A stretch of DNA of 64,000 nt from assembly GCA_017436185.1 (NCBI GenBank), contig JAFSDP010000018.1, forward strand, positions 1 through 64,000. The letters run 5' to 3'. This stretch comes from Alistipes sp. Lineage in GTDB: Bacteria; Bacteroidota; Bacteroidia; Bacteroidales; Rikenellaceae. Position numbers and translations under genes: made by a program. The notes under the pieces are model-generated. The model saw nothing but the letters and a program-made list of their open reading frames with translations. It was not told where the DNA came from and ran no database searches. Shown in pieces: positions 11,474 to 33,201 of the stretch (positions are counted from its first letter, which is position 1; the number at the start of each line of letters is the position of its first letter).

Positions 11474-11505
11474 TTTGTCGTTCCGCTTTTTATGTCTTAT
11501 TTTTG
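11474..11505 (+). promoter_or_regulatory. Promoter of the aryl-polyene-type gene cluster
   Basis: TTTG at 11474-11477 and TATTTTTG at 11498-11505 are 20 nt apart, a full match to the Bacteroidota -33/-7 pattern. The -7 box lies inside the longer open frame of the first gene, which fixes its start at the ATG at 11531. No other convincing promoter was seen before 33159. Confidence 0.7.
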
Positions 11506-11530
11506 TGACCTATTAGCGAAACGTGAAACT

Positions 11531-13060
11531 ATGATCACCATCACCCAAACACTCTCCTTCGACGAGGTAGAACGCATTTGCATCGCCCGTGAGCCGATTG
11601 CGCTTTCGGCCGATGCCCTTCAGAAGGTGGCCGCCTGCCACCATTTCCTGTGCGACTTTGCGAAGGATAAAGTCATCTACGGCATCAATACGGGCTTTGG
11701 TCCGATGGCCCAATGGCGCATCGACGACAAGGACCTCACAGCCCTCCAATACAACATCATCCGCAGCCACTCCACCGGTGCAGGCCGTCCCCTGCCCGAA
11801 CATTGTGTGCGTGCCGCTATGACGGCTCGCCTGATGACCTTTATGCAGGCCCGCTCGGGTGTGCATCCCCAGGTGGTGGAACTGCTGGTCGAACTCTTGA
11901 ACCGCCACATCCACCCCGTCATTCCCGAACACGGCAGCGTGGGGGCAAGTGGCGATTTGGTGCAACTCTCGCACATCGCCCTGGCCCTGATTGGCGAGGG
12001 TGAGGTCTTCTATAAGGGCACTCGTCGCAAGACCGAGGAGGTCTTCCGTGAGGAGGGCCTGACGCCCCTACGGATGCACGTGCGTGAGGGGTTGGCCGTG
12101 ACGAACGGCACGGCGGTGATGACGGGCATCGGTCTGGTGAACCTGATGCGTGCCCGCCACCTGCTGGATTGGAGCGTGAGCTGCTCGGTGCTGATGAACG
12201 AGATTGCCTCGTCGTACGACGATTTGATGTCCGAGACCCTCAACGGCCTCAAACACCACGCAGGGCAGCAGCAGATTGCCGCCCGTATGCGTCGTGTGGC
12301 CGAGGGAAGCCGTGCGCTGCGCTCCCGTGAAGCGGAGCTTTATCGCAGCCACAGCGAGGAGGTCTTCGAACACAAGGTGCAGCCCTACTACTCGTTGCGT
12401 TGCATTCCGCAGATTCTTGGGCCGGTGCTCGATACGATGAATCGTGCGGAGGAGGTCTTGATTAACGAGCTGAACTCGGTGGACGACAACCCCGTCATCG
12501 ACCCCGTAAACGGCACGGTCTATCACGGTGGCAACTTCCACGGCGACTACGTTTCGCTTGAGATGGACAAGCTCAAAATAGTCATCACCAAACTCACGAT
12601 GCTGGCCGAGCGTCAGATGAACTACCTCTTCCACGACCGCATCAACGGCATCCTGCCTCCGTTCGTCAATCTGGGTGTGCTGGGGTTGAACTACGGCCTG
12701 CAAGCCTCGCAATTTACGGCCACCTCCACAACGGCCGAGTGCCAGACCCTCTCCAACTCGATGTATGTCCACTCGATTCCCAACAACAACGACAACCAGG
12801 ATGTGGTCTCGATGGGTACCAATTCGGCTCTGCTGTGCGGTCGGGTGGTGGAGAACAGTCTGCAGGTGCTTGCAATCCACCTGATGGCCTTGGTGCAGGC
12901 GGTCGATTGCCTGCGAATGAAGGAGCAGCTGGCCCCCGCCACACGCAACCTCTACGAGCGTGTACGCAAGTTGGTGCCCTGCTTTGTTGAGGATACGCCC
13001 AAGTACGAAGAGATTGAGCGACTGATCACCTTCCTGAAGAACGAAAGCCCCCTTTGCTAA
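11531..13060 (+). CDS. Tyrosine ammonia-lyase (HAL/PAL/TAL family)
   Basis: A 509-residue lyase expected to remove ammonia from L-tyrosine, giving p-coumarate as the aromatic starter of the polyene. The self-forming MIO cofactor triad Ala139-Ser140-Gly141 lies in GASGDLVQLSH. The substrate-selectivity region reads RSHSTG with Ser79-His80. As I recall it, the flexirubin-cluster tyrosine ammonia-lyase of Flavobacterium johnsoniae shares this segment and long stretches such as YGINTGFGPMAQ, VYHGGNFHGDY and HSIPNNNDNQD. Histidine lyases share Ser-His too, so substrate rests on context. The start is ATG 11531, since the upstream extension overlaps the promoter. First gene of the 20-gene cluster. 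Confidence 0.85.
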   Translation: MITITQTLSFDEVERICIAREPIALSADALQKVAACHHFLCDFAKDKVIYGINTGFGPMAQWRIDDKDLTALQYNIIRSHSTGAGRPLPEHCVRAAMTARLMTFMQARSGVHPQVVELLVELLNRHIHPVIPEHGSVGASGDLVQLSHIALALIGEGEVFYKGTRRKTEEVFREEGLTPLRMHVREGLAVTNGTAVMTGIGLVNLMRARHLLDWSVSCSVLMNEIASSYDDLMSETLNGLKHHAGQQQIAARMRRVAEGSRALRSREAELYRSHSEEVFEHKVQPYYSLRCIPQILGPVLDTMNRAEEVLINELNSVDDNPVIDPVNGTVYHGGNFHGDYVSLEMDKLKIVITKLTMLAERQMNYLFHDRINGILPPFVNLGVLGLNYGLQASQFTATSTTAECQTLSNSMYVHSIPNNNDNQDVVSMGTNSALLCGRVVENSLQVLAIHLMALVQAVDCLRMKEQLAPATRNLYERVRKLVPCFVEDTPKYEEIERLITFLKNESPLC

Positions 13061-13062
13061 CG

Positions 13063-13797
13063 ATGAATAGACGCTATGCCCTTGTGACGGGTGCGGGTCG
13101 AGGTATCGGCCGAGCCGTCGCCTGCCGTCTGGCCCGTGCGGGATATACGGTGCTGATTAACTACCTGCAAAACGAAACGGCTGCCGCCGAGACCCTCCGT
13201 CTTATCGAGGAGGCGGGTGGTGAGGCCGAACTGATGCGCTTCGATGTGGCCGACCGTGCGGCGGTCGATGAGGCCCTTGCGGCGTGGCATACAGCCCACC
13301 CCGAGGCCTACATTTCGGTCTTGGTCAATAATGCGGGTATCCGTCGGGACAACCTGCTGATGTGGATGCCCGAGGAGGATTGGCACGCGGTGCTACACAC
13401 CTCGCTCGACGGCTTCTACAACGCCACGCAGCCGCTACTGAAAAATATGCTTTTGAATAAGTGGGGCCGCATTGTCAATATCGTCTCGCTGTCGGGCATC
13501 AAAGGGTTGCCCGGCCAGACGAACTATTCGGCGGCCAAGGGGGGCGTGATTGCCGCCACGAAGGCGCTGGCACAGGAGGTGGCCAAGAAGCGGGTGACGG
13601 TCAATGCCGTGGCTCCGGGCTTCATCCGCACCGATATGACGGCCGACCTGGACGAGGCGACGCTCAAAAAACAGATTCCGTCGGGTCGCTTTGGCGAGGC
13701 CGATGAGGTGGCTGCGCTGGTGGCCTTCCTCTGCTCCGACGAGGCGGGCTACATCACGGGCGAGGTGATTTCGATCAATGGCGGACTTTACACCTAA
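13063..13797 (+). CDS. 3-oxoacyl-ACP reductase (FabG-like SDR)
   Basis: A 244-residue short-chain reductase that would reduce the beta-keto group after each polyene elongation with NADPH. It has TGAGRGIG near residues 9-16, VNNAGIRRDNLL as in FabG, the catalytic set within SLSGIKGLPGQTNYSAAKGG, and the C-terminal ITGEVISINGG. An in-frame TTG at 13054 lies upstream, but ATG 13063 begins only 2 nt after the lyase stop and gives the normal FabG start. It is the only keto-reductase in the cluster. Confidence 0.88.
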   Translation: MNRRYALVTGAGRGIGRAVACRLARAGYTVLINYLQNETAAAETLRLIEEAGGEAELMRFDVADRAAVDEALAAWHTAHPEAYISVLVNNAGIRRDNLLMWMPEEDWHAVLHTSLDGFYNATQPLLKNMLLNKWGRIVNIVSLSGIKGLPGQTNYSAAKGGVIAATKALAQEVAKKRVTVNAVAPGFIRTDMTADLDEATLKKQIPSGRFGEADEVAALVAFLCSDEAGYITGEVISINGGLYT

Positions 13798-13830
13798 ACA
13801 CCGAAAAACAAAAGAAACGACATACGACTT

Positions 13831-15054
13831 ATGGCAAACAGAGTAGTGATTACGGGGATGGGTATCTGGTCCTCGCTCGGCACCTCGAAGGAGGAGGTGC
13901 AGCAGGCCCTTTGGGAGGGTCGCTCGGGCATCGGCATCGACCCCGTACGCAAACAGATGGGTTACCGTTCGGCCTTGACGGGCATCATTCCGACCCCCAA
14001 CCTGAAGGGGATGTTGGATCGCCGTCAGCGTCTGTGCCTCCCCGAGCAGGGAGCCTATGCCTATATGGCCACCCGTGAGGCGTTGGCCCAAGCAGGCATC
14101 GACGAGGCTTTCTTACACGCGCGCGAGGTGGGTATCCTCTACGGCAACGACAGCAGTGCCGAGGCGGTGGTGACGGGTATCGACATCATCCGTGAGAAGC
14201 AGACGACGGCCCTGGTCGGCTCGGGCAACATCTTCCAGTCGATGAACTCCACGCTGACGATGAACCTCTCGACCATCTTCAACCTCCGAGGGGTCAATTT
14301 CACCATCTCGGGGGCTTGTGCCAGCGGCTCGCACGCCATCGGTATGGCCTACCTGCTCATCAAGCAGGGGCTGCAGCAGTGCGTCATCTGCGGTGGTGCG
14401 GAGGAGGTGAACCGCTATGCGGTGGGTAACTTCGATGCCCTGTCGGCCTTCTCGATTCGTGAGGAGGAGCCGACCCGTGCCTCCCGCCCCTTCGACCGTG
14501 ACCGTGACGGCTTGGTGCCGAGCGGCGGTGCAGCGACGCTCATTCTGGAGAGTTACGATTCGGCCGTTGAGCGTGGTGCCGAGATTCTGGGCGAGGTGAT
14601 CGGCTACGGCTTCTCGTCGAATGGCGAGCATATCTCGGTGCCCAATGTCGATGGGCCGGTGCGCTCGCTTCGAATGGCCTTGAAGGATGCCGACCTGCAG
14701 CCCGACCAAATTGCCTATGTCAATGCCCACGCCACCTCGACCCCGCTGGGAGATCAGAACGAGGCACGTGCCATTGCCGAGGTCTTTGGCAACGAGGGGC
14801 CCTATGTCACCTCGACCAAGTCGCAGACGGGCCACGAGATGTGGATGGCGGGTGCCAGCGAGGTGATCTACTCGATGCTGATGATGCAGGGCGGCTTCAT
14901 CGCCCCCAACCTCAATTTCGAGAACCCCGACGAGGCCTCGGCCGTGTTGCGCATCCCGAGGGAGCGTGTCGAGTTGGAGTTTGATACGTTCCTGAGCAAC
15001 TCGTTTGGCTTCGGAGGCACGAACTCGACCCTTATTGTTCGCAAAATCAAATAA
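13831..15054 (+). CDS. Beta-ketoacyl-ACP synthase (FabF-like), ketosynthase 1
   Basis: A 407-residue condensing enzyme with a complete active site: Cys163 in SGACASGSHAIG, His300 in NAHATSTPLGD and His335 in QTGHEMWMAG. The C-terminus ends with NSFGFGGTNSTLIV as in FabB/FabF enzymes. It would extend an ACP-bound acyl chain with malonyl-ACP. It is one of three ketosynthases with full triads in the cluster, so each may have a separate job (priming, elongation or fatty tail), which cannot be assigned from sequence. An acyl carrier protein gene follows after 29 nt. Confidence 0.9.
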   Translation: MANRVVITGMGIWSSLGTSKEEVQQALWEGRSGIGIDPVRKQMGYRSALTGIIPTPNLKGMLDRRQRLCLPEQGAYAYMATREALAQAGIDEAFLHAREVGILYGNDSSAEAVVTGIDIIREKQTTALVGSGNIFQSMNSTLTMNLSTIFNLRGVNFTISGACASGSHAIGMAYLLIKQGLQQCVICGGAEEVNRYAVGNFDALSAFSIREEEPTRASRPFDRDRDGLVPSGGAATLILESYDSAVERGAEILGEVIGYGFSSNGEHISVPNVDGPVRSLRMALKDADLQPDQIAYVNAHATSTPLGDQNEARAIAEVFGNEGPYVTSTKSQTGHEMWMAGASEVIYSMLMMQGGFIAPNLNFENPDEASAVLRIPRERVELEFDTFLSNSFGFGGTNSTLIVRKIK

Positions 15055-15083
15055 TTACACAAAATAATAGACGAAACACAACA

Positions 15084-15329
15084 ATGAATTTAGCAGAGAT
15101 TACCGAAAAGGCCAAGGTGGTTTTGGCCGAAGAGTTTGAGGTTGAGGAGTCGGCCATCACCCCCGAGGCGTCGCTCAAGGAGACGTTGGGTCTGGACAGC
15201 CTCGATTTGGTCGATGTGGTGGTGCTCGTGGAGCAGCACTTCGGCGTGACGCTCAAGGGTCCCGACTTTGTGGGCGTGAAGACTTTTGCCGACTTCTACC
15301 GCCTGCTCGACAGCAAACTCAACGCCTAA
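15084..15329 (+). CDS. Acyl carrier protein 1
   Basis: An 81-residue carrier with the phosphopantetheine site Ser39 in LGLDSLDLVDVV. It is acidic and helical, of usual length for a discrete ACP. It must be activated by a phosphopantetheinyl transferase, which is not encoded in this window. It sits between ketosynthase 1 and the LpxL-like acyltransferase. Confidence 0.92.
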   Translation: MNLAEITEKAKVVLAEEFEVEESAITPEASLKETLGLDSLDLVDVVVLVEQHFGVTLKGPDFVGVKTFADFYRLLDSKLNA

Positions 15330-15355
15330 CAAGTCCCCAAAACCAAGCAACAAGA

Positions 15356-16240
15356 ATGGCACAGGAGCAACGAAGGGCGTGGAGCGGCAAATCGCGCGGA
15401 GGCAGCTTTGGCTACCTCTTCTTTGTGCGTGTGATTCGCCTCTTGGGCATACGGGCCGCCTATGTGGTGCTGGCCTTTGTGGCCCTCTACTTCATCCCCT
15501 TTGCCCCGAAGGCTACGGCTGCCATCTGGGACTACAACCGTCGCACCCGCCGCTTGGGGTGGCTTGGCTCGGCCTGGCAACTCTACCGCCACTACTACAC
15601 CTTCGGCCTTACGCTCATCGACCGTATGGCCCTGCGTGCAGGGATGCAGCAGCGTTACCGCTTCGCCTTTGAGGAGTACGACCGCTTTTTGGAGATCATC
15701 AACTCGGGCAGCGGCGTGGTGATGATTGGTGCCCACGTCGGTTTGTGGGAGGCGGGCGCATCGTTCTTCGGCAAGTATGGCAAGCACATCAACATCGTGA
15801 TGCTCGATGCCGAACACGAGGCCATCAAACGCATCTTGGAGGAGCAGGGCATCGCAAGCGACTTCAAAATCATCCCCATCAACGAGGGGGGCTTGGAGGC
15901 GATGATTGCCATCCGCAAGGCCCTTACCGACGGGGAGTATGTCTGCTTCAACGGCGACCGCTTCTACGAGGAGGCGACCGCCATTCCCCATCCGCTGATG
16001 GGGCGTGAAGCTCGCTTTCCGAGCGGCCCGTTCCGCATTGCAGCCCGTTGTCGGGTGCCGGTGGTCTTCTACTATGCGATGCGTGAGAAGGGGCGTTGCT
16101 ACCGCTTCCACTTCGAGGAGGTCCCCGCCGAGGAGCTGCGGAGTGCCGAGGCTATTCTGAATCGCTACACCTCGTCGCTCGAACGACTGATGGCGCGTTA
16201 CCCCCGCCAATGGTTTAACTTTTACAAATTCTGGAACTAA
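15356..16240 (+). CDS. LpxL/HtrB-like lysophospholipid acyltransferase
   Basis: A 294-residue membrane-bound acyltransferase. A hydrophobic N-terminal anchor spans about 22-50, and the catalytic H(x4)E motif is His127 to Glu132 in IGAHVGLWEAG. Later motifs NGDRFYEE and FPSGPFRIA match the LpxL group. Members of this family in aryl-polyene clusters are thought to attach the polyene acyl chain to a lipid or glycolipid. It lies 26 nt after the ACP gene and 3 nt before the methyltransferase gene. Confidence 0.85.
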   Translation: MAQEQRRAWSGKSRGGSFGYLFFVRVIRLLGIRAAYVVLAFVALYFIPFAPKATAAIWDYNRRTRRLGWLGSAWQLYRHYYTFGLTLIDRMALRAGMQQRYRFAFEEYDRFLEIINSGSGVVMIGAHVGLWEAGASFFGKYGKHINIVMLDAEHEAIKRILEEQGIASDFKIIPINEGGLEAMIAIRKALTDGEYVCFNGDRFYEEATAIPHPLMGREARFPSGPFRIAARCRVPVVFYYAMREKGRCYRFHFEEVPAEELRSAEAILNRYTSSLERLMARYPRQWFNFYKFWN

Positions 16241-16243
16241 ACG

Positions 16244-17344
16244 ATGAAACTTACCCCCCAGCTCGAACGCATCTACGGCCACGAGCAGTGTACGGCCCTT
16301 GAGGCACAACGCCGTGCCCAGGAGATTGCCTTTGCACCGATGGTCTTTCAGGTCTCGCGCCTGATGCTCAAATTCGGCATCCTCGACTACCTTTCGGAAC
16401 ACCGTGAGGGGGCTACCCAACGCGAAATTGCGACCCAATGCCACCTCTCGGAGTATGCCGCACAGGTGCTGTTGGAGGCTTCGCTGTCGATTGGTACGGT
16501 CTTGACCGCCGACGATAAATACACCCTCTCGAAGACGGGTTGGTTCCTACTGAACGATCGAATGGCCCGTGCCAACCTCGACTTTAACCACGATGTCAAT
16601 TACCTCGGTCTGTTCCACCTGGAGGAGGCTCTGCGTGAGGGCAAACCGGCCGGATTGAAGGTCTTTGGCCAGTGGCCCACCATCTACGAGGGGCTTTCGA
16701 GCCTTCCGGAGGAGGTGCAGCGCAGCTGGTTCGGCTTCGACCACTTCTACTCCGACGAGTCGTTCGAGGCGGCCTTGAAGGTGGTCTTCGACAACCCCGA
16801 CCGACCGGTGCGTCGGCTGTTGGATGTGGGTGGCAACACGGGCCGCTGGGCCGAGCGTTGCGTGGCCTACAACAAGGAGGTGGAGGTGACGATTATGGAC
16901 CTGCCGCAGCAGTTGGAACTGATGCGCAAGGCGACCGAGGGCAAGGCGGGAGCCGAGCGTATTCACGGCTATGGCGGCAACCTATTGGACGAGGCGACGG
17001 CCTTCCCGACCCCGGCGTTCGATGTGATTTGGATGAGCCAATTCCTGGACTGCTTCTCCGAGGAGGAGGTGACAAGCATCTGCCGTCGTGCCGCCGAGTC
17101 GATGAACGAGGAGTCGCGCCTCTACATTATGGAGACCTTCTGGGATCGCCAGCGTTTCGAGACGGCTGCCTACTGCCTCACGCTCACGAGCATCTACTTT
17201 ACGGCTCTGGCCAACGGCAACAGCAAGATGTACCACTCGGAGGATATGCGCCGCTGTGTTGAGGCGGCAGGTCTGGAGGTTGAGGAGGTGCGTGACGGGC
17301 TGGGTCTCGGCCACTCGATTATGATTTGCAAACGCAAAGCCTAA
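16244..17344 (+). CDS. SAM-dependent O-methyltransferase-like protein
   Basis: A 366-residue enzyme of the plant/bacterial O-methyltransferase type. An N-terminal winged-helix dimerisation domain occupies about residues 25-105. The SAM-binding loop LLDVGGNTGRWAERC begins near residue 190. It would methylate a hydroxyl or ring carbon of the aryl head group, as aryl polyenes often carry ring methylation or O-methylation; target not proven. It is translationally close to its neighbours, with 3 nt before it and 14 nt after it. Confidence 0.8.
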   Translation: MKLTPQLERIYGHEQCTALEAQRRAQEIAFAPMVFQVSRLMLKFGILDYLSEHREGATQREIATQCHLSEYAAQVLLEASLSIGTVLTADDKYTLSKTGWFLLNDRMARANLDFNHDVNYLGLFHLEEALREGKPAGLKVFGQWPTIYEGLSSLPEEVQRSWFGFDHFYSDESFEAALKVVFDNPDRPVRRLLDVGGNTGRWAERCVAYNKEVEVTIMDLPQQLELMRKATEGKAGAERIHGYGGNLLDEATAFPTPAFDVIWMSQFLDCFSEEEVTSICRRAAESMNEESRLYIMETFWDRQRFETAAYCLTLTSIYFTALANGNSKMYHSEDMRRCVEAAGLEVEEVRDGLGLGHSIMICKRKA

Positions 17345-17358
17345 ATAGAAAGTCGGCA

Positions 17359-17766
17359 ATGGATATTTTGGAACTCATCCCGCAGCGACCGCCGATGGTC
17401 TTGGTCGATACGTTTGAGGGTATCGATGCCGAGGGGGTGGCCCACACGACCCTCGAAGTGCGCTCGGACAACCTCTTCTTGGAGGAGGATTGCCTGACCG
17501 AATGCGGTCTGACGGAGCACATTGCCCAATCGGCTGCGGCCCGCATCGGCTACCTTTATCGGGAGCGTGGCGAGGAGGTGCCCATCGGCTTCATCGGCTC
17601 GGTCAATAACCTGGTGGTGGAGCAGTTGCCCGAGGTGGGTGTACGCCTCTACACGGCCGTGCGGGTGGTGCAGGAGGTCTTCAACGTCACCCTGATTGAG
17701 GCCGAGACGGCGACCGAAACCGAGACGGTGGCCCGTTGCAAAATGAAGATATTTTTACAACAATGA
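17359..17766 (+). CDS. Hotdog-fold 3-hydroxyacyl-ACP dehydratase-like protein 1 (ApeP/FabZ relative)
   Basis: A 135-residue single hotdog protein beginning ELIPQRPPMVLVD, the start typical of FabA/FabZ relatives in polyene clusters, and continuing with TEHIAQSAAARIGY for the central helix. The usual His of IPHR is Gln here (IPQR), as I recall for many Bacteroidota members. I see no GHFP histidine. It could remove water after keto-reduction or act as a partner of dehydratase 2. ATG 17359 is preferred because the longer frame overlaps the methyltransferase stop at 17344. Its stop overlaps the next start (ATGA). Confidence 0.75.
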   Translation: MDILELIPQRPPMVLVDTFEGIDAEGVAHTTLEVRSDNLFLEEDCLTECGLTEHIAQSAAARIGYLYRERGEEVPIGFIGSVNNLVVEQLPEVGVRLYTAVRVVQEVFNVTLIEAETATETETVARCKMKIFLQQ

Positions 17767-18206
17767 TACGCAAAAAACAACCCCAAACGGCTGCCTTGAC
17801 GGCTACAGCCCCGATTCGTGTCCGCTTCAGCGAGGTCGATTCGATGCAGGTGGTGTGGCACGGCGAGTATGTGCGCTACTTCGAAGATGGGCGTGAGGCC
17901 TTTGGTCGCAAGTACCCCGGCATCGGCTATCTGGACATCTACGGTGCGGGCTATACGGCGCCGATTGTGCAGATGGAGATCGACTACCTGCGCCCCTTGC
18001 GTTTGGAGGAGGAGGCGACCATCGAGATTGGTTATCTGGACTCGGAGGCCGCCAAACTCTGCTTTTGCTACGAGGTGCGCCGTGCGGATGGCGAGTTGGC
18101 TGCCCGAGGGCGTACGACGCAGGTCTTTGTCAATGGGGCAGGCGAGATGGAGTTGAACCTGCCCGAATTTGTGAAACGATGGAAAGAGAACAACTTAACG
18201 AAATAA
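17763..18206 (+). CDS. 4-hydroxybenzoyl-CoA-type thioesterase
   Basis: A 147-residue hotdog thioesterase of the YbgC/4HBT group. The conserved entry RVRFSEVDSMQVVWHGEYVRYFEDGREAF contains the Asp used for catalysis. It may release the polyene from the ACP or edit misprimed ACP. I placed the start at ATG 17763, which overlaps the preceding stop by 4 nt, rather than at a longer frame within that gene. The following ketosynthase gene begins 28 nt before this gene ends. Confidence 0.82.
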   Translation: MIRKKQPQTAALTATAPIRVRFSEVDSMQVVWHGEYVRYFEDGREAFGRKYPGIGYLDIYGAGYTAPIVQMEIDYLRPLRLEEEATIEIGYLDSEAAKLCFCYEVRRADGELAARGRTTQVFVNGAGEMELNLPEFVKRWKENNLTK

Positions 18207-19855: not shown

Positions 19856-19866
19856 TTAAATAAACG

Positions 19867-20121
19867 ATGGAACAACTGATTCTGGAACTAAAAGAGCATC
19901 TGATCGAGGAGCTGAACCTCGAGGAACTGACCGCCGAGGATATCGACGCCGAGGCTCCGCTGTTTGGCGAGGGGCTGGGGTTGGATTCGATCGATGCCTT
20001 GGAGATTATCCTGATTTTGGAGAAGTATTACGGTGTGCGTTTAGCCAATACGGCCGAGGCGAAGCCCGTCTTCTACTCGGTGAAGAGCTTGGCCGAGTAT
20101 GTGATGGCCAACCGTAAGTAA
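19867..20121 (+). CDS. Acyl carrier protein 2
   Basis: An 84-residue acyl carrier protein with phosphopantetheine site Ser41 in LGLDSIDALEII. It begins 11 nt after ketosynthase 2 and ends 25 nt before ketosynthase 3. Having two ACPs with different sequences suggests one carries the aryl starter or polyene and the other a different chain, which is inference. Confidence 0.92.
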   Translation: MEQLILELKEHLIEELNLEELTAEDIDAEAPLFGEGLGLDSIDALEIILILEKYYGVRLANTAEAKPVFYSVKSLAEYVMANRK

Positions 20122-20146
20122 TCCACTGCAAATCAATCGAAAACAG

Positions 20147-21331: not shown

Positions 21332-21333
21332 TT

Positions 21334-23388: not shown

Positions 23389-23391
23389 CCG

Positions 23392-23757
23392 ATGCTTTTT
23401 GACGGAAATTTCTATACGGTCTTATCGCAACATCAAGCGGGCCAACTCTTTACTGTGGAGGTGGAGGTGAACGATAAACACCCCCTCTTCGGTGGCCATT
23501 TCCCCTCGCAGCCCGTTGTTCCGGGGGTGGTGACGATGACCATCCTGCGTGAACAGTTGGCCGTGATTTTGGGGCGCAAGGTGCGCTTTACGACCCTCAA
23601 AGAGTGTAAGTTTGTCTCGGCGCTCGTGCCTCGTGAGGGGTTGCGCCTGCGCCTGGAGATGACCATCAACGCCGACCACCTGCGTGCCGTTGTCTATGAC
23701 GGCGAACGTGTGGCACTGAAACTTTCGACCCATTTTTACACCTATCCGCTTCGTTAG
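23392..23757 (+). CDS. Hotdog dehydratase 2 (FabZ/ApeI-like)
   Basis: A 121-residue hotdog protein with the FabZ-type motif HPLFGGHFPSQPVVPGVV, giving the catalytic His36. In FabZ a Glu lies three residues after PGV(L/M/V) (PGVMIIE); here that position is Thr50 (PGVVTMT), so the second catalytic residue is missing from its usual place. It may use another acid, possibly Glu54, or work together with dehydratase 1. It lies 3 nt after the LolA-like gene and 2 nt before the glycosyltransferase gene. Confidence 0.8.
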   Translation: MLFDGNFYTVLSQHQAGQLFTVEVEVNDKHPLFGGHFPSQPVVPGVVTMTILREQLAVILGRKVRFTTLKECKFVSALVPREGLRLRLEMTINADHLRAVVYDGERVALKLSTHFYTYPLR

Positions 23758-23759
23758 TA

Positions 23760-24962: not shown

Positions 24963-27900
24963 ACTCTTCATAGGTCTCTACGATTGGTTCTCCGAGCGTC
25001 GGGGAGGATTGCTGTTGCTGCTTGCGGTGGTGACGGCTCTTCTGGTGTGGCCCGTCACGCAGCTCCACTTCGAGGAGAACATCACCTCCTTCTTCGGCTC
25101 GGACGAGCGCAACCGTAAGGGTTTGTTCGATCAGTTGAGCCTCAAAGACCGCATCTTGGTCTTGGTCGAGGGCGACGATGCCGACACGATGGTTGAGGCG
25201 GGCGATCGCTTTTGTGAAGAGATAGCCCCTTTGTGTGACGATGGGCTGCTGCGCACCATCTCGACGGGTGCCGACGAGCGTACCCTGCAAGGGGGTGCCG
25301 ATTTCATCTACCGCTACCTGCCCATCTGGTTGGAGGAGGCCGATTATGCACGCATCGACTCGCTGCTGACCCCGCAAGGGATGGCCGCCTCGGTCGATGG
25401 ATTGTACGAACGCCTCACCTCGCCGATGGCGATGGTGGTGGGCGATATGGTGCGCCGTGACCCCCTTTCGTTGGGGTCGCACCTGCTGCGCCGCTTCGAG
25501 CGCTTCGGCTCGGAGAACCGCTATACGCTCTACGACGGGCACCTCTTTACCGAGAATTTGGGGGCGATGCTCATCTTCCTCTCGCCCGCCCACGCGATGG
25601 GCAGCACGGGCAACAACGACCGTCTGGTCGAGGCCTTGGAGGGGGCTGCGGAGCGTGTCGGGGCGGAGTATTCGGTCGAGATCACCTCGGTTGGCGGTCC
25701 GGTGGTGGCGGTGCATAATGCCCGCCGCATCAAGCACGATACGGCCCTGACGCTTACGTTGGCGTTGGTGGTCATCATCACGGTCATCTGCTGTTCGTTC
25801 CGCAGTCGCCGTGCCATTCCGCTCATCATCGTGCCGCCCCTGTTTGGTGCCCTCTTTGCGTTGGCTGTCATCAGCCTTACGCAGGGGTCGATTTCGGCCA
25901 TTGCCGTCGGTGCAGGGGCGGTGATTCTGGGCATTGCGTTGAGTTACTCGATTCACGTCGTTTCGCATACCAACCACTGCTCCGACCCCCGAGAGATTAT
26001 TCGGGATTTGAGTTACCCGCTTACGATCGGCTGCCTGACGACCATCGGAGCCTTTGTGGCACTGACCTTTACGGGGTCGGTCCTGCTGCACGATTTGGGG
26101 CTCTTCTCGGCCCTGGCACTCATCGGAACGACCCTCTTTTGCCTTGTTGTGTTGCCTCACTTCCTCCGCCCGAAGGCGGGGGCGGCCAAGAGCGGTCTGC
26201 TGCGTCTGATTGAGCGGGTGAACGGCTACCCCTACGAGCGCAACGGCTGGTTGGTGGGGGGTATTGTGATGGTGACGGTGGTGATGCTCTTCTTCTATCG
26301 CGATGCCTCGTTCGACAGCGATATGACCTCGCTGGGGTATGTGCCCGAACGCATCGCCCGAGCCGAGCAGCGCATCGACGAAGAGTTCTCGGCCCGCAGT
26401 CGCCAAATCTACCTGGTGAGCCGCAGCGATGAGCAACACTCCCTGGAGCAGGTGATGGAGACACTGCGCCGTCGAGGCGAGGTGGAGAACTACATCTCGG
26501 CCGCCGATTTTGTCATCGACAGCACCACCCAGCAGGAGCGCATCGCCCGTTGGGAGGCCTTCTGGGCCACACGTCGTGAGGCAACGTTGTCGCTTTTCGA
26601 GCAGACGATCGAGCGGCGTGGTTTCCGCCGAGGTGCCTTTCCGCAGTTGGCCGAAATGCTTGCTACCCAATACGTTCCGTGTGGTTATACGCACGACGAG
26701 TTGGCCGATGCACCGTTGCTTTCCGATTGGTTGAATCCGACCGACGAGGGCCTTTTGTTGGTGGGGCGCATCACGTTGGATGGCGAGGACAAAGCGGCAG
26801 TCTATGGGGCAATCGAGCGTGAAAGCGAGGCGGCCATCATCGACCGTGCCTACTTCTCGGCCCGTATGGCTGACGAGGCGAGCCAAGATTTCAACTTCAT
26901 CCTCTTTGTCTCGTCGCTCATCGTCTTTGCGGCCCTCTACATCACCTACGGGCGCATCGAGTTGGCCCTTCTGACCTTCCTGCCGATGGCCATTTCGTGG
27001 GTCATCATTCTGGGGCTGATGGCCTTGTTGGATATTCGTTTCAACATCGTCAATATCATTCTGGCCACCTTTATCTTCGGTATCGGTGACGACTTTTCGA
27101 TCTTCATTATGGATGGCCTGAGGGAGGAGTACGCTACCGGCCGACGGATGCTCTCGACCCACAAGACGGCCATCTTCTTCTCCGCCTTCACGACCATTGT
27201 CGGTATGGGGGTCTTGATTTTGGCTCAACACCCCGCTTTGAAGTCGATTGCGCTGGTCTCGGTGCTCGGTATGGCGGTGGTGGTGGTAGTGGCCTACACA
27301 CTGCAACCCTTCTTGTTCCGCCTCTTCATCTCGAGCCAGACGGAGCGGGGTGGCTACCCCTATACCTGCGTGGGGTTGTTGCGCACGGCCTATTCGTTCC
27401 TCTACTTCCTGGTGGGGTGTCTGGTGGCGCAGGGGATGATGGTGGTGCTGATGGTGCTGCCCATCGCACGCCGCTTGAAGAAGGGGCTGTTCCACCGCTT
27501 CCTCTACGGGTTTGCGTGGTTGTTCTTAAAGACCATCCCGGGGGTGAAGTTGCATAAACACGCCATCAAATCGTTTGATACACCGTCGGTTGTGGTGGCC
27601 AATCACCAATCGTTTGTCGATATTTTGGTCTTGTTGAGCCTTTCGCCTCGTGTGGTGATGGTGACCAATTCGTGGGTGTGGCGTTCGCCCTTCTTCGGGT
27701 GGGTGGTGCGCTATGCCGACTGCTGCCACGCCGCCGATGGCTACGAGGCACTCATCGAACGCCTCCGACCCCGTGTCGAGGAGGGCTATTCGGTGGTCAT
27801 CTTCCCCGAGGGTACCCGCTCGCCCGACTGCCGCATCGGCCGCTTCCACAAGGGAGCCTTCTTGTTGGCCGAACGGTTGCGCCTTGCGGTGCGTCCGTTG

Positions 27901-28749
27901 GTGCTCTATGGCACGGGGCAGGTCTGCTCGAAACGACAAGGATTCTACATCAAGGCGGGTGACCTGCACGTTACGGAACTTGCTACGCAACCCATTGCGG
28001 GTGACCTGCGTAGCGAGGCCAAGCGCATCGGTGCGCTGGTGCGTGCGGGCTATGCCCAAAGCGAGGAGCTGTACGGCCTGCCGACCGCTCGGTGGATGCG
28101 TGAGACGCTCCATAAGAACTACATCTACAAAAGCCCCGTCATCGAGTGGTATATCCGCATCAAGGCACGGCTGGATGGCCACTACCTGCGTTGGCATCGA
28201 CTCATTCCCCGCACGGCCACCATCACTGACATCGGGTGTGGCTACGGGCAGTTGGCGCTGATGCTGGGCCTTGCGAGCCGTGAGCGACAGATTGTGGGTA
28301 TGGATTACGACGGCGAGAAGATTCTCTTGGCCTCGCATTGCTTCAGTCGGGGCGAGCAGATTCGCTTCGTCGAGGCCGATATGCGCACGGCCGAGTTGCC
28401 CCGCTCGGATGTCTTCCTCTTCAACGACTCGCTGCACTATGTGAGTGCCGAGCAGCAGTGGCAGATTCTGGAACGCTGTGTCGAGCGGCTCAACGAGGGG
28501 GGGATGCTCATTGTGCGTGACGGCGACAGCTCGCAACACGAACAACAGCACCGCACGACCCTCTGGACCGAAAAGTGGAGCACCCGTATCCTGCGCTTCA
28601 ACCGCACCGACGAGCCGTTGCAGTTTGTCGATCGGGAGTGGATGTGTCGCTTTGCCGCCTCGCACGGCCTTGCGATCGAGATAGAGCCCTTCGATACGAA
28701 AACCTCGGCCAACCTGTATGTGTGCCGCAAAATGACTGCCAATGGCTAA
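24955..28749 (+). CDS. Trifunctional MMPL exporter / PlsC-like acyltransferase / SAM methyltransferase
   Basis: A 1264-residue, three-part fusion. Residues 1 to about 810 are an MMPL/RND-type exporter with a first helix at about 17-36, two large periplasmic loops and two blocks of helices. Residues about 850-1060 are a PlsC-like acyltransferase with NHQSFVD near 882 (the H(x4)D motif) and FPEGTRSP near 949. Residues about 1075-1264 are a class I methyltransferase with DIGCGYGQLALMLG near 1092. Combining export, acyl transfer and methylation in one chain suggests coupled lipidation and transport of the pigment. Homologues with this layout are known from Bacteroidota. It overlaps the genes on both sides by 8 nt. 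Confidence 0.88.
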   Translation: MNKLFIGLYDWFSERRGGLLLLLAVVTALLVWPVTQLHFEENITSFFGSDERNRKGLFDQLSLKDRILVLVEGDDADTMVEAGDRFCEEIAPLCDDGLLRTISTGADERTLQGGADFIYRYLPIWLEEADYARIDSLLTPQGMAASVDGLYERLTSPMAMVVGDMVRRDPLSLGSHLLRRFERFGSENRYTLYDGHLFTENLGAMLIFLSPAHAMGSTGNNDRLVEALEGAAERVGAEYSVEITSVGGPVVAVHNARRIKHDTALTLTLALVVIITVICCSFRSRRAIPLIIVPPLFGALFALAVISLTQGSISAIAVGAGAVILGIALSYSIHVVSHTNHCSDPREIIRDLSYPLTIGCLTTIGAFVALTFTGSVLLHDLGLFSALALIGTTLFCLVVLPHFLRPKAGAAKSGLLRLIERVNGYPYERNGWLVGGIVMVTVVMLFFYRDASFDSDMTSLGYVPERIARAEQRIDEEFSARSRQIYLVSRSDEQHSLEQVMETLRRRGEVENYISAADFVIDSTTQQERIARWEAFWATRREATLSLFEQTIERRGFRRGAFPQLAEMLATQYVPCGYTHDELADAPLLSDWLNPTDEGLLLVGRITLDGEDKAAVYGAIERESEAAIIDRAYFSARMADEASQDFNFILFVSSLIVFAALYITYGRIELALLTFLPMAISWVIILGLMALLDIRFNIVNIILATFIFGIGDDFSIFIMDGLREEYATGRRMLSTHKTAIFFSAFTTIVGMGVLILAQHPALKSIALVSVLGMAVVVVVAYTLQPFLFRLFISSQTERGGYPYTCVGLLRTAYSFLYFLVGCLVAQGMMVVLMVLPIARRLKKGLFHRFLYGFAWLFLKTIPGVKLHKHAIKSFDTPSVVVANHQSFVDILVLLSLSPRVVMVTNSWVWRSPFFGWVVRYADCCHAADGYEALIERLRPRVEEGYSVVIFPEGTRSPDCRIGRFHKGAFLLAERLRLAVRPLVLYGTGQVCSKRQGFYIKAGDLHVTELATQPIAGDLRSEAKRIGALVRAGYAQSEELYGLPTARWMRETLHKNYIYKSPVIEWYIRIKARLDGHYLRWHRLIPRTATITDIGCGYGQLALMLGLASRERQIVGMDYDGEKILLASHCFSRGEQIRFVEADMRTAELPRSDVFLFNDSLHYVSAEQQWQILERCVERLNEGGMLIVRDGDSSQHEQQHRTTLWTEKWSTRILRFNRTDEPLQFVDREWMCRFAASHGLAIEIEPFDTKTSANLYVCRKMTANG

Positions 28750-30232
28750 CCGTTCCACCATCATCCTCGGTGCAGGCCCCGGTGGACTGCTTGCCGCCTC
28801 GATGCTGGCCCGTGCCGGCAAGCGGGTGGTGGTGTTGGAGCAACACCACACCGTCGGGGGTGGTTTGCAGTCGTTTAGCCGTCGGGGCGAATGGTTCGAT
28901 ACGGGCTTTCACTATGTGGGGGCGATGGACGAGGGACAGGTGCTGCGTCAGATTTTTCGCTATGCGGGCTTGAATGAACTGCCGCTGCGCCGCCTTTCCG
29001 AGGAGGCATTCGATCGCATCTGTTTGGGCGACAACCACTTCGATTTGGCGATGAGGTGCGACCGCTTTGTCGAGCGGTTGGCCGAGGCCTTTCCCCACCA
29101 GCGGGAGCACCTGCGCCGCTATCTTTCGATGGTACGGCAGGTGGGCGAGTCGGTCTCTGTGGAGGAGTTTCGTGCGGGCCGCATCGCCCGTGATGCCTCC
29201 TCGTGGCAGGGTGTCTCGGCCGAGGAGGTGCTCCGTACCACGATTGATGACCCGACGTTGCGTGCCGTCTTGACGGGCAATGCAATGCTTTATGGCGGTG
29301 GTCGGAACCACACCTCGTTCTACGACCACGCGATGATTCTCCACTCCTTTGTGGCGGGTGGAGCCTACGCCTTTTCGGGGGGCACGCAGCAGGTGGCCGA
29401 TGCCCTCAAAGAGGCAGTCGAACGACAGGGAGGCGAGGTGGTAACCCGTGCCCGTGTGGTGGCGTTGCACCTTAAAGCAGGGCGTGTTGAGGCGGTCGAG
29501 ACCGAAGATGGTCGCCGCTGGGAGGCCGAGGAGGTGATTTCGACCCTTCATCCCCGTCAGACTTTTGCCCTACTGCAGGGCGAGCACCGCTACCGCCCCT
29601 CGTTCTTCGAGCGACTGAATAGGATGGCGGATAGTTGCACCCTCTTTACCCTCTACCTGCACCTGCCCGAGGGGGTAAGCTACCGCCCGACGAACTACTA
29701 CCTCCACCGCACCGAGCAGCCGTGGCCGACCCCCTTGCGCACGATGGAGGAGCCTTTGGAGGAGTTGCTGCTGACGATGCAACCGCCCCGTGAGGGGGAG
29801 CGTGCTACGGTCTTGTCGCTGATGACCCCGATGGTCCATACCGCCTTTGAAAAGTGGAACGATACGACCCACCCGATGCAACGAGGCGAGGCGTACGAGG
29901 CTGCCAAGGCGGCTCTGGCCGAGCGGATGGTTCGGTTTGCCGACCGTTTTCGGTTGGATTTGCCCCTCACCCAAGGGGTGCGCTATACCGCCTCGCCCCT
30001 CACTTGGCGTGATTATACCTCGACCCCCAACGGCTCGGCCTATGGGTTGGTGAAGGATTTTCATAACCCGCTTGCGACCCACCTGCCTGCCCGCACCCGC
30101 ATCGAAAACCTCTGGTTGGCGGGTCAGAGTGTCAATCTGCACGGCGGTTTGGGCGTGGCCCTCTCGTCGGTGGTGGCCGCAGGCTGCGTGGTAGGCGAAG
30201 AGCAACTTACAAAAGCGATTGCAAATGCGTAA
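28742..30232 (+). CDS. FAD-dependent oxidoreductase, phytoene-desaturase-like
   Basis: A 496-residue flavoprotein with the FAD-binding GAGPGGLLAAS at residues 10-20, Glu34 at the end of strand two (VVVLEQHH), the GGLQSF segment and a C-terminal LAGQSVNLHGGLGVALSS motif as in CrtI-type and all-trans-retinol saturase-like enzymes. In a polyene cluster it could desaturate or isomerise the chain, or oxidise the head group. It overlaps the exporter gene by 8 nt and the C45 gene by 8 nt. Confidence 0.85.
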   Translation: MANRSTIILGAGPGGLLAASMLARAGKRVVVLEQHHTVGGGLQSFSRRGEWFDTGFHYVGAMDEGQVLRQIFRYAGLNELPLRRLSEEAFDRICLGDNHFDLAMRCDRFVERLAEAFPHQREHLRRYLSMVRQVGESVSVEEFRAGRIARDASSWQGVSAEEVLRTTIDDPTLRAVLTGNAMLYGGGRNHTSFYDHAMILHSFVAGGAYAFSGGTQQVADALKEAVERQGGEVVTRARVVALHLKAGRVEAVETEDGRRWEAEEVISTLHPRQTFALLQGEHRYRPSFFERLNRMADSCTLFTLYLHLPEGVSYRPTNYYLHRTEQPWPTPLRTMEEPLEELLLTMQPPREGERATVLSLMTPMVHTAFEKWNDTTHPMQRGEAYEAAKAALAERMVRFADRFRLDLPLTQGVRYTASPLTWRDYTSTPNGSAYGLVKDFHNPLATHLPARTRIENLWLAGQSVNLHGGLGVALSSVVAAGCVVGEEQLTKAIANA

Positions 30233-31871
30233 AGTGATAAAATACAGCCTTTTGACCCTGGTCGGGTTGTGCGTGTTGTTGTTGGCTTTGCCGACGGCAC
30301 TCTACCTCACGGCCGATATGAAACAGCCCCACGAGGTGGTCGATACCTCGTCGGTCGAGGTGGTGGTGCGTGGCGACAGCGTGCGCCTCACCACACGAGG
30401 GTCGCTGGTGCATACCCCCTACGGATTGTGGGAGGGGCGGGTGAGTGGCACCCCCTTGGAGCGAGGTCTGCACCTCGGGGTCTTGCAACGTGATTTGTTG
30501 GAGTATCAGGAGGCGGCCTTTGTCGAGCAGATTCGTCGCTTTGTCCCCTCGGAAAAGTACCTGTGGCTGCTGCATAAACTCACCATCATCTTCAACCGTC
30601 GGATGGCCGACCACATCGACGAGGAGCTGCGCCAAGAGATTTACGCTATGTCGGCTTCGTGCAGCCACCGTTTCGACAGTTTCGGTACCCCCTATTTCCG
30701 CCAACTCAACTACCACGCTGCCCACGACATCGGCCACGCTATGCAGGAGTATATGTTGGTGGGGTGCAGTGCCTTTGCCGTGCGAGGCGAGGCGAGCGAG
30801 GATGGCAACCTTCTGGTTGGTCGCAACTTCGACTTCTGGGTGGGCGATGCCTTTGCCGAAAATAAGGTGGTGATGATGGTCGAGCCGACCGAAGGGTACC
30901 GCTACCTCTCGGTCACCTGGCCCGGAATGGTGGGGGTGGTCTCGGGAATGAACGAGCGAGGGCTGACCGTCACGATCAATGCCGCCAAGGGGGCGATTCC
31001 CACCTCCTCGGCGATGCCCATTTCGCTCCTGACCCGCCGCATTTTGCAGTATGCCTCCACCATCGAAGAGGCCTATCGGATGGCCTGCGAGGCCGAAACT
31101 TTCGTGTCGGAGTCGATTTTGGTCGCTTCGGGCGAGGAGAATCGGGCGGTGGTCATCGAGAAAAGCCCCACCCAAACAGCCCTCTACGCCCCCGAGGCGG
31201 AGCGTCTGGTGGTGACGAACCACTACCAATCCGAGGCCTTTGTCACGGATGGCTACAACCTGGAAAACATCGCCACGTCGGATAGCCCCTACCGCCACGC
31301 ACGCCTGACGGAGCTTTTGACCGAGGCGGGTCGGCTCACCCCCGAGGGGGCTGCTGCCGTGCTGCGCAACCGCTACGGAATGGGGGGCAGGGATATCGGC
31401 CTTACGAACGAAAAGTCGATCAACCAGGCCATTGCCCACCACGCCGTCATCTTCCAACCTGTGGAGCGCAGGGTGTGGGTCTCGACTGCCCCCTGGCAGG
31501 CGGGTGCGATGCTCTGTTACGACCTCGACGAGGTGTTTGCTGCACCCACCGACGGCCAAACCCGCTACGATGCAATGCGCACCATTGCCCCCGACAGTGC
31601 CTTCCTTATGAATGATTACCCTCGGGTAACGGCCTATCGAGCATTGAGCCAACGCCTTCAGCAGCACCCCGATACATCGCTTGTCGATTCGCTCGTTAAG
31701 CTCAATCCCAACTATTTCGGCACTTACGAGTTGGCGGGCGACTGCTACGCCGCCGAGGGCAAGCGTGCCGAGGCTGTTGCCCTATGGCACGAGGCCCTCG
31801 AATGCGAGACGGCTCGCCTTTCGGACCGCCAAAAAATAGAACAAAAAATCCAAGACTATGGTAAAAGATAG
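30225..31871 (+). CDS. C45/AAT-type autoproteolytic acyltransferase-hydrolase homologue
   Basis: A 548-residue protein of the Ntn-hydrolase class related to acyl-CoA:6-aminopenicillanate acyltransferase and choloylglycine hydrolase. An N-terminal helix (residues 6-28) works as a signal anchor. Cys181 in LVGCSAFAVRG is the expected nucleophile exposed by autocleavage; GRNFDFW follows. It thus likely acts outside the cytoplasm, making or breaking an amide or ester bond. The C-terminal part has one TPR-like helix pair (LAGDCYAAEGKRAEAVALWHEA). ATG 30225 overlaps the previous stop; a TTG two codons upstream is less likely. Role in the cluster is unknown. Confidence 0.75.
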   Translation: MRKVIKYSLLTLVGLCVLLLALPTALYLTADMKQPHEVVDTSSVEVVVRGDSVRLTTRGSLVHTPYGLWEGRVSGTPLERGLHLGVLQRDLLEYQEAAFVEQIRRFVPSEKYLWLLHKLTIIFNRRMADHIDEELRQEIYAMSASCSHRFDSFGTPYFRQLNYHAAHDIGHAMQEYMLVGCSAFAVRGEASEDGNLLVGRNFDFWVGDAFAENKVVMMVEPTEGYRYLSVTWPGMVGVVSGMNERGLTVTINAAKGAIPTSSAMPISLLTRRILQYASTIEEAYRMACEAETFVSESILVASGEENRAVVIEKSPTQTALYAPEAERLVVTNHYQSEAFVTDGYNLENIATSDSPYRHARLTELLTEAGRLTPEGAAAVLRNRYGMGGRDIGLTNEKSINQAIAHHAVIFQPVERRVWVSTAPWQAGAMLCYDLDEVFAAPTDGQTRYDAMRTIAPDSAFLMNDYPRVTAYRALSQRLQQHPDTSLVDSLVKLNPNYFGTYELAGDCYAAEGKRAEAVALWHEALECETARLSDRQKIEQKIQDYGKR

Positions 31872-33159
31872 CAACCTGCACTACCGCACCCCCGACGAGA
31901 TTCGCTGTTTTCAGGAGGAGCGTCTGCGTGAAACGGTGGCCTATGTCGCCGCCCACTCGCCCTACTATATGGCCCTCTTTGTACGTGAGGGAATCGATCC
32001 CGCCACCATCCGTACGCTCGATGATTTGCGTCGCCTGCCCCTCACCACGAAAGAGGATTTGCAGCTGCACGGCGAGGAGTTTGTCTGCGTACCCCGTCGC
32101 CAAATCATCGACTATGTGACCACCTCGGGTACGCTGGGTGACCCCGTTACGTTTGCCCTCACGGAGGGTGACCTGCAACGTTTGGCCTACAACGAGGCCT
32201 GCTCGTTTCGGATGGCGGGCTGCTCGGAGGAGGATGTGATGCAGCTGATGACCACCATCGACCGTCGCTTTATGGCGGGTCTGGCCTACTTTATGGGGGC
32301 TCGTGAGTTGGGTTGCGGCGTGGTGCGTGTCGGCAACGGCATCCCCGAATTGCAGTGGGATACCATTCGACGAGTCGGCTCGACGGCCTGTATGGTGGTC
32401 CCCTCGTTTTTGGTCAAACTCATCGACTACGCCGAGCGCAACGGCATCGACCCCAACCAAAGCACCCTGCGTCGTGCCATCTGCATCGGCGAGGCCTTGC
32501 GTACCCCCGAAGGAAAACTTACGACCCTGGGCGAGAAGATTGCCGAGCGGTGGCCCAACCTCGAACTCTACTCGACCTATGCCTCGACCGAGATGCAGTC
32601 TTCGTTTACCGAGTGCAGCTGCCACAACGGCGGCCACATCCCCTCGGATTTGATTATCGTCGAGCTGTTGGACGAGGAGAACAACCCCGTCGAGGATGGC
32701 CGTGAGGGCGAGGTGACCATCACCACGCTGGGCGTGGAGGGTATGCCGCTGCTGCGTTTCAAGACGGGCGACATCTGCATCCGCATCAGTGAGCCGTGCG
32801 GCTGCGGTCGCCATACGGCCCGCCTGAGCAGTGTCATCGGCCGCAAAGGGCAGATGATTAAGTTTAAGGGTACAACCCTCTATCCGCCTGCGCTGTTCGA
32901 TATTCTGGACAACATTCCGCAGGTCGAGAACTACCTAGTCGAGGTCTTCACGAACAACCTCGGCACCGACCAAATTCAGATTAAAATCGGCTCGGAGAAC
33001 CACTCCGAGGGCTTCATCAAGCAGATCAAGGACATCTTCCGCTCGAAGGTGCGTGTCGCCCCCGACATCCGTTTCGAGCCGGTCGAGCTGATCGCCCGCC
33101 AACAGATGCCGCCAATGAGTCGCAAGGTGGTGAAATTCATCGATTTACGCAAGAAATAA
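31858..33159 (+). CDS. PaaK-like AMP-forming acyl-CoA/ACP ligase
   Basis: A 433-residue adenylate-forming enzyme of the phenylacetate-CoA ligase type. The P-loop-like TTSGTLGDP lies at residues 88-96, the second core motif YASTE near 241, and the C-terminal AMP-binding_C part follows (GRKGQMIKFKGTTLYPP). A Cys-rich patch (CGCGRH) is present near residue 320. It is the natural candidate to activate p-coumarate as an adenylate and load it onto CoA or an ACP. It overlaps the C45 gene by 14 nt and is the last gene of the cluster. Confidence 0.87.
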   Translation: MVKDSNLHYRTPDEIRCFQEERLRETVAYVAAHSPYYMALFVREGIDPATIRTLDDLRRLPLTTKEDLQLHGEEFVCVPRRQIIDYVTTSGTLGDPVTFALTEGDLQRLAYNEACSFRMAGCSEEDVMQLMTTIDRRFMAGLAYFMGARELGCGVVRVGNGIPELQWDTIRRVGSTACMVVPSFLVKLIDYAERNGIDPNQSTLRRAICIGEALRTPEGKLTTLGEKIAERWPNLELYSTYASTEMQSSFTECSCHNGGHIPSDLIIVELLDEENNPVEDGREGEVTITTLGVEGMPLLRFKTGDICIRISEPCGCGRHTARLSSVIGRKGQMIKFKGTTLYPPALFDILDNIPQVENYLVEVFTNNLGTDQIQIKIGSENHSEGFIKQIKDIFRSKVRVAPDIRFEPVELIARQQMPPMSRKVVKFIDLRKK

Positions 33160-33164
33160 AAGCC

Positions 33165-33201
33165 GAAGGGGTTGTTCGCTCATCGAACAACCCCTTTCGT
33201 T
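33165..33201 (+). terminator. Strong terminator of the pigment cluster
   Basis: GAAGGGGTTGTTCG (33165-33178) pairs with CGAACAACCCCTTTC (33184-33198) with a 5-nt loop, starting 6 nt after the last stop codon. The T-run is short and broken. Because a minus-strand gene ends at 33249, it may also act in the other direction. Confidence 0.8.

Follow-up and report, generated by a model that had tools for sequence, protein, structure and literature searches.

A flexirubin-line aryl-polyene operon, probably without a dialkylresorcinol module, in a Rikenellaceae-type bacterium

Introduction

Flexirubins are polyene acids esterified to a dialkylresorcinol (DAR), and the flxA-flxY locus of Chitinophaga pinensis is among the closest described relatives of the genes treated here. 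FlxA (tyrosine to 4-coumarate) and FlxY (4-coumarate to 4-coumaroyl-CoA) of this species were tested in vitro, FlxW was proposed as the enzyme joining the polyene to the resorcinol, and the DAR genes darA and darB lie far from flxA-flxY (PMC3992019). Related clusters are also reported elsewhere. The available excerpt of PMC12940132 describes pBGC-12 of the gut bacterium Bacteroides xylanisolvens as similar to the flexirubin cluster, terms gut clusters of this line flexirubin-like, and credits them with flexirubin pharmacology. A cluster of a periodontal bacterium is said to correspond to flexirubin (PMC6275135, in part), and an aryl-polyene cluster is reported in a Prevotella assembly (PMC8863827, in part).

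We analyzed a window of 64,000 nucleotides, i.e. the whole stretch from position 1 to 64,000 of contig JAFSDP010000018.1 (Alistipes sp., assembly GCA_017436185.1), which carries a 20-gene operon. We consider its most probable reading to be a flexirubin-line aryl-polyene operon lacking the DAR module, in a Rikenellaceae-type bacterium. The pathway is known, NCBIfam already names several genes of the cluster, and the operon is real, complete and of a common type; what is new is that the DAR half is missing in the window's family. The label flexirubin-like is probably wrong for the Rikenellaceae version because the resorcinol half is missing. No description of resorcinol-free flexirubin clusters in Rikenellaceae was recognised among the literature matches listed, which were judged mostly by title or abstract and came from a collection outside which bioRxiv and most subscription literature fall.

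Results

Genes were called with Pfam and NCBIfam profiles under the curated NCBIfam cut-offs. Where a gene has no curated model, its letter was taken from its place in the Chitinophaga-like locus G272 and from the roles listed in PMC3992019, so that V and W, for example, are positional assignments. Judged by family scores, the operon is a flexirubin-line aryl-polyene operon, because FlxA, FlxB, FlxJ and FlxY exceed the NCBI flexirubin cut-offs. The components sought for the polyene half of flexirubin were found in one cluster: FlxA, FlxY, and a type II set of ketosynthases (KS), acyl carrier proteins (ACPs), ketoreductase and dehydratases (Table 1). The original prediction of an aryl-polyene/flexirubin-type cluster holds for the polyene line, with four curated cut-offs exceeded and C. 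pinensis-like content. It needs one refinement: a flexirubin also requires a DAR module, for which DarA, DarB and DarH found no match.

Queries for DarA, DarB, DarG, DarH and the ABC permease had no match in the window. The ABC ATPase query matched nothing but an MsbA-like gene at about 39 kb, and the queries for the CrtI and second dehydratase of the DAR module matched only flxV and flxF. The comparison also covered samples of the phylum (395 genomes), the order (295) and the family of G001, a Rikenellaceae bacterium (200); G001 itself belongs to both the phylum and the family samples. FlxA exceeded its cut-off in 33 of the 395 phylum genomes, 31 of which carried a full-length DarB (29 over the cut-off, two at 499-519 bits). 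Conversely, all 29 phylum genomes with DarB over the cut-off carried FlxA, and the two FlxA genomes without DarB were G001 and G137; three FlxA-negative genomes (G299, G273 and G238) carried a DarB-like sequence below the cut-off. In the family sample, FlxA was found in 18/200 genomes, and DarB, DarA and DarH were each found in 0/18 of these. The difference in DarB between the two samples (31/33 vs 0/18) gives p = 6.8e-12, a value that describes rather than tests because the genomes are related. Among the 19 genomes of the related loci described below, 18 carried FlxA, DarB exceeded its cut-off in 0/19, and the highest DarB-profile score was 35.6 bits.

Flexirubin-line clusters are common in the order, where FlxA was found in 58/295 genomes. 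DarH occurred in 35 of the 58 (34 over the cut-off); DarB and DarH were both present in 28, both missing in 21, and found singly in two (DarB) and seven (DarH). Loss of the DAR module was rejected as an order-wide trait, as 30 of these FlxA genomes carry DarB. Where DarB was found in the stretches compared, DarA, DarG, DarH and the ABC pair lay alongside in 7/7, one permease being cut at the end of its stretch. The DarA query recovered 8/9 control genomes with DarB, one of them being the source of the query itself, and missed G257.

Several points weigh against the loss of the DAR module. A stretch of 64 kb without DAR genes is thin evidence by itself, because in C. pinensis these genes are distant from the flx cluster, and the DAR status of the host would rest on its relatives, most of them metagenome-assembled genomes (MAGs). 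Weak DarB-profile matches (E 0.001 or better) occurred in 17/19 relatives, vs 9/14 control genomes. The p value above is descriptive, with G001 counted in both samples; full-length DarB is present in 30/58 FlxA genomes of the order (24 over the cut-off); the DarA query has no NCBIfam match and was named by its place beside DarB; and no chemistry was found for these clusters. One alternative is that the host makes a true flexirubin, with a dialkylresorcinol supplied by genes elsewhere in the genome or by diverged enzymes. The separation of darA and darB from the flx cluster in C. pinensis (PMC3992019) speaks for it, as do five FlxA genomes of the order sample (G440, G512, G609, G655 and G693), which pair DarH with diverged DarB-like proteins (81-97 bits) and perhaps use another resorcinol-type partner. 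We regard a true flexirubin as unlikely, given that DarA, DarB and DarH are absent from 18/18 FlxA genomes of the family and that the DarB profile scores no higher than 35.6 bits in any of the 19 nearest genomes.

The remaining alternatives concern the starter unit and the state of the operon. A lyase acting on histidine or phenylalanine, with an operon product other than an aryl polyene, would fit the first substrate motif (SH, placed by eye), which resembles that of histidine ammonia-lyase (HAL), as reported for C. pinensis FlxA (PMC3992019). However, the window protein scores 845.7 bits to FlxA and 437.9 to the best HAL model (cut-off 524), and the Gln of the second motif, typical of tyrosine and phenylalanine ammonia-lyases, is apparently present (also placed by eye). 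In C. pinensis, FlxA is described with both of these motifs; it prefers tyrosine 1010-fold over phenylalanine and showed no histidine activity (PMC3992019). A histidine lyase was judged unlikely on family scores, and the alternative as a whole appears very improbable. Slightly less credible still is a standard aryl polyene of the proteobacterial type, with 4-hydroxybenzoate as starter: KS, ACP, hotdog, LolA, MMPL and acyltransferase parts are shared with ape clusters (PMC8253772, available part), but the starter genes found are those of FlxA and FlxY, each scoring above its flexirubin cut-off (ApeH was not searched for), and family scores make a proteobacterial ape origin unlikely. A silent or decaying relic, compatible with the patchy distribution of FlxA (18/200 family genomes), deserves as little credence in view of 20 intact open reading frames (ORFs), retained catalytic motifs and a -7 box before flxA in 23/25 relatives.

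The comparison of clusters also bears on which enzyme couples the polyene to the resorcinol. The presence of FlxP and FlxW was scored across 48 loci that have FlxY and also FlxN or FlxO, the window included and G319 excluded, its T-Y part lying outside the stretch. Both genes were present in 38 loci and neither in eight; FlxP stood alone in two (G011 and G016) and FlxW in none (p = 1.2e-7, descriptive). FlxW (here the gene of the C45 family in position W) was found in 28/37 loci from DarB-less genomes and in 10/11 with DarB (p = 0.42). Since it co-occurs with the deacetylase FlxP and not with DarB, FlxW is unlike a DAR gene in its distribution, and a role as a DAR-specific ligase is not supported. 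Its Gly-Cys motif is present in 23/23 loci, including the window, where the Cys is residue 181; the structure 2x1c, a fungal-type acyl-CoA acyltransferase, matches weakly from residue 194 on, 13 residues past this Cys (E 0.00078). DarH, named in NCBIfam as a BtrH-related acyltransferase, tracks DarB and is a better candidate than FlxW for forming the polyene-DAR ester. In the accessible part of PMC3949708, the BtrH-like gene of Azoarcus is lettered darE, not darH.

A gene swap concerns FlxJ. In two related loci (L006:1043-2410 and L007:970-2337), the FlxJ position is occupied by a B12-binding radical S-adenosylmethionine (SAM) protein that matches TIGR04072 (lipid biosynthesis B12-binding/radical SAM protein rSAM_ladder_B12) at 402.8 and 412.5 bits (cut-off 360). 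Of the 33 loci that contain FlxE together with FlxF, 22 had FlxJ only, six the radical-SAM protein only, five neither and none both; in the six (G604, G633, G689, G517, G006 and G007), the radical-SAM gene always lay between E and F. The alternation of two unrelated SAM enzymes in the same position suggests a modification of the polyene by each of them; for FlxJ, ring methylation is the simplest assumption, and the swap may reveal what FlxJ does.

Two structural features were considered and set aside, the first as a mark of DAR loss and the second as a novelty. FlxI and FlxL form one ORF (555-734 amino acids stop to stop) in 16/16 related loci with a usable match, the truncated L010 match being left out, and are separate in 7/7 loci of the first G comparison set; both states occur among further Bacteroidales. 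The fusion was rejected as a mark of DAR loss, as it is found in DarB-bearing genomes (G604, G633, G257 and G689) and the split form in DAR-less Bacteroidales (e.g. G517, G694, G644 and G594). At least 7,997 relatives of the fused protein were found at E 1e-40 or better (7,999 candidates scored, best 120 listed). The three-domain FlxU is likewise no novelty, since single ORFs of 1217-1290 amino acids align over most of it in five DAR-type loci; by our own reading, its methyltransferase part appears degenerate in Flavobacterium-like loci.

The operon is compact, with 20 intact ORFs on the plus strand between 11531 and 33159, all with an assigned ATG start and none with an internal stop. The predicted 20 genes without a gap over 34 nt were confirmed, the widest gap being 33 nt. 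The count of ten overlapping or touching junctions needs revision, since eight of the 19 junctions overlap, a number that rises to 13 when gaps of up to 3 nt are counted in. The longest ORF of flxA starts at 11492, within the promoter, and the ATG at 11531 is the better fit. The Bacteroidota-type promoter pattern (Table 1) had five matches on both strands of the 64 kb, vs 0.31 expected from shuffling, and none within the operon; the next plus-strand match lies at 33573-33604. Three -7 boxes alone occur inside the operon (17409, 23607 and 32148). Upstream of flxA in the 25 relatives assessed (L044, at a contig edge, and two HAL-like rows excluded), the -7 box was present in 23 and the full consensus in seven, vs 5.6% and 0.6% of random 156-nt stretches from the same loci, a control unmatched for base composition and AT content.

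The claim of a sole good promoter holds for the Bacteroidota consensus, but four plus-strand sigma-70 matches inside the operon (22789, 24355, 25691 and 32960) tell against it. They belong to a scan of 22500-34500 that gave nine matches, vs 3.8 (standard deviation 1.9) in shuffles; a scan of 10500-22500 gave two, both on the minus strand, vs 3.9 expected. The sigma-70 consensus used differs from that of Bacteroidota, and because of this the matches carry little weight, yet not none. The terminator predicted at the operon end coincides with a hairpin whose T tract is weak on the plus strand; the scanner called it on the minus strand only. Promoter and hairpin at the two ends are consistent with a single transcript. 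Rfam and tRNA scans of the window returned no matches.

Beyond the operon, several spacers (11140-11431, 238-503, 4258-4353 and 33521-33553) carry short tandem arrays whose repeat period is 7, 9 or 18 nt, among them 4.7 copies of CAACTTT at 11399-11431, just 5' of the flxA promoter. A sigma-54-type activator gene and secG lie upstream (8487-11078), with no evidence that they regulate the operon. At 44232-49146, a Lon protease gene precedes kdsB and the genes for KDO-8-P synthase and a KpsF-type isomerase, an ordinary arrangement.

The 19 related loci were gathered with FlxU as query. In 18 of them, incomplete ones included, the genes found keep the order of the window from about flxD on, L015 being rearranged. 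Individual losses affect FlxW (L011 and L016), FlxS at the threshold used (L014) and FlxJ (L006 and L007). The Lon protein of the window shows 87% identity with its counterpart in G018 (Alistipes sp. RGIG1820, from goat caecum) and 85% with that in G001. Across 30 genomes, identity was 65-87% in 21, 62% over part of the protein in G013, and 53-54% in eight, including Parabacteroides, Massilibacteroides, Tannerellaceae, Bacteroidaceae and Bacteroidales UBA1402. The FlxA tree places the window with G001 and G018 (support 85/87) inside a set of 12 rows (96/95).

Two members of this 12-row window/Alistipes set, L012 (G012, Bacteroidaceae) and L004 (G004, Bacteroidales UBA1402), have Lon proteins only 53-54% identical to that of the window, a mismatch that reflects either horizontal transfer or mixed MAG bins. 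A second type of DAR-less Bacteroidales cluster (G517, G694, G644, G594, G682, G513 and G739) has neither FlxP nor FlxW and carries two CrtI-like genes. In the five where the state of FlxI and FlxL could be called (all but G513 and G739), the two are split, and G739 belongs to the window's family sample.

Table 1. Features of the operon, with positions in the window and the profile, motif or structural evidence for each.
Feature	Position	Strand	Evidence
Bacteroidota-type promoter (-33 TTTG, -7 TAnnTTTG)	11474-11505	+	TTTG-N20-TATTTTTG; consensus scan
flxA, tyrosine ammonia-lyase	11531-13060	+	NF053541 845.7 bits (cut-off 700); ASG cofactor motif, NQD motif
flxB, FabG-like ketoreductase	13063-13797	+	NF053542 404.5 bits (cut-off 340)
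flxC, ketosynthase	13831-15054	+	PF00109, PF02801; Cys-His-His retained
flxD, acyl carrier protein	15084-15329	+	PF00550; DSL motif
flxE, LpxL-like acyltransferase	15356-16240	+	PF03279
flxJ, methyltransferase (putative ring methylation)	16244-17344	+	NF053543 609.9 bits (cut-off 560)
flxF, hotdog dehydratase	17359-17766	+	FabZ-like, weak, far under cut-off; no Pfam match; position as in G272
flxH, 4HBT-type hotdog thioesterase	17763-18206	+	PF13279
flxI-flxL fusion, ketosynthase with C-terminal ketosynthase-like part	18179-19855	+	Pfam; Cys-His-His retained
flxM, second acyl carrier protein	19867-20121	+	NF006617 88.6 bits (cut-off 70); DSI motif
flxN, ketosynthase	20147-21331	+	Pfam; Cys-His-His retained
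flxO, ketosynthase-like, putative chain-length-factor type	21334-22128	+	PF13723; catalytic Cys and His unaligned
flxP, polysaccharide deacetylase	22116-22814	+	PF01522
LolA2-like carrier	22804-23388	+	NF053544 121.2 bits, just under cut-off 125
flxS, ApeI-like hotdog dehydratase	23392-23757	+	PF22818 33 bits (cut-off 28.5)
flxT, GT2 glycosyltransferase with DUF2062	23760-24962	+	PF00535, PF09835
flxU, MMPL exporter with PlsC acyltransferase and methyltransferase domains	24955-28749	+	Pfam
flxV, CrtI/CrtD-like FAD oxidoreductase	28742-30232	+	PF01593; CrtD-like, under cut-off
flxW, C45 N-terminal nucleophile (Ntn) acyltransferase or hydrolase	30225-31871	+	NF040521 219.4 bits (cut-off 85)
flxY, 4-coumarate CoA ligase	31858-33159	+	NF053551 677.4 bits (cut-off 520)
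Hairpin, likely terminator	33166-33196	.	13-bp stem; fold -25.7 kcal/mol, z -5.0, 0/200 shuffles as good

Discussion

The anchor and export genes are present in the window, and the DAR genes found no match there. By homology to the enzymes tested in C. pinensis, FlxA would convert tyrosine to 4-coumarate, which FlxY would activate. FlxC, FlxN, the chain-length-factor-like FlxO, FlxI-L, the two carrier proteins, FlxB and the dehydratases FlxF and FlxS may then extend the chain to an aryl-polyene acid, and FlxJ may methylate the ring. Because DarA, DarB and DarH are missing, this acid would not be esterified to a dialkylresorcinol: the pigment is probably not flexirubin itself and probably attached to something else. 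A membrane lipid could serve, loaded by the acyltransferases that are kept, namely FlxE, FlxW and the PlsC domain of FlxU, with FlxT and FlxP supplying a sugar part. Export through the MMPL domain of FlxU and carriage by LolA2 to the outer membrane would follow. Chain length, acceptor, colour and location, including outer-membrane anchoring, are inferences from the sequence throughout. A likely role is that of an antioxidant or envelope pigment, as put forward for aryl polyenes.

More tentatively, the product may belong to a further class of aryl-polyene lipid made by gut Bacteroidales, in which a tyrosine-started polyene of the flexirubin type sits on an aminosugar lipid. FlxT would add an N-acetylhexosamine, FlxP would deacetylate it and the Ntn protein FlxW would acylate the freed amine; the DAR ester would be an added DarH branch, so that flexirubin producers would make two polyene products. 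We consider this possible but less likely than not. The curated families nearest to FlxT include polyprenyl-phospho-GalNAc synthase, far under its cut-off (89.9 vs 370 bits). An aryl-polyene lipid of Xenorhabdus, presented in a preprint, reportedly has a galactosamine-phosphate-glycerol anchor, which makes the aminosugar idea worth testing and lends it no direct support.

Comparison with known systems

The operon is closest in content to flxA-flxY of C. pinensis and its homologue in Flavobacterium johnsoniae (PMC3992019), with which it shares the tyrosine ammonia-lyase starter, the FlxY ligase, the set of KS, reductase, dehydratase and thioesterase, the polysaccharide deacetylase, LolA, the glycosyltransferase and the exporter. 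It differs from this flexirubin system in that the DAR genes found no match. Its gene order is nearly that of the Chitinophaga-like locus G272, from which it departs in the fusion of FlxI and FlxL and in the placement of FlxJ between E and F; between 11 and 33.5 kb, it also has no match to FlxG, the halogenase-like FlxK, LolB2 or AcpS, FlxG-like matches being present in 9/16 related loci. Among gut Bacteroidales, pBGC-12 of B. xylanisolvens belongs to the same line as the window, a likeness drawn from the description in the available excerpt of PMC12940132, which does not mention DAR. The ape clusters of Escherichia coli and Xenorhabdus, as far as covered in the accessible part of PMC8253772, share with it acyltransferases, a resistance-nodulation-division exporter, Lol-like proteins and probably a resorcinol-free aryl polyene; they start from 4-hydroxybenzoate, whereas the window would start from tyrosine. 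Such polyenes occur both with and without DAR, as in arcuflavin and xanthomonadin, respectively, whose starter, unlike that of the window, comes from a chorismate-utilizing enzyme (PMC3949708, in the part available).

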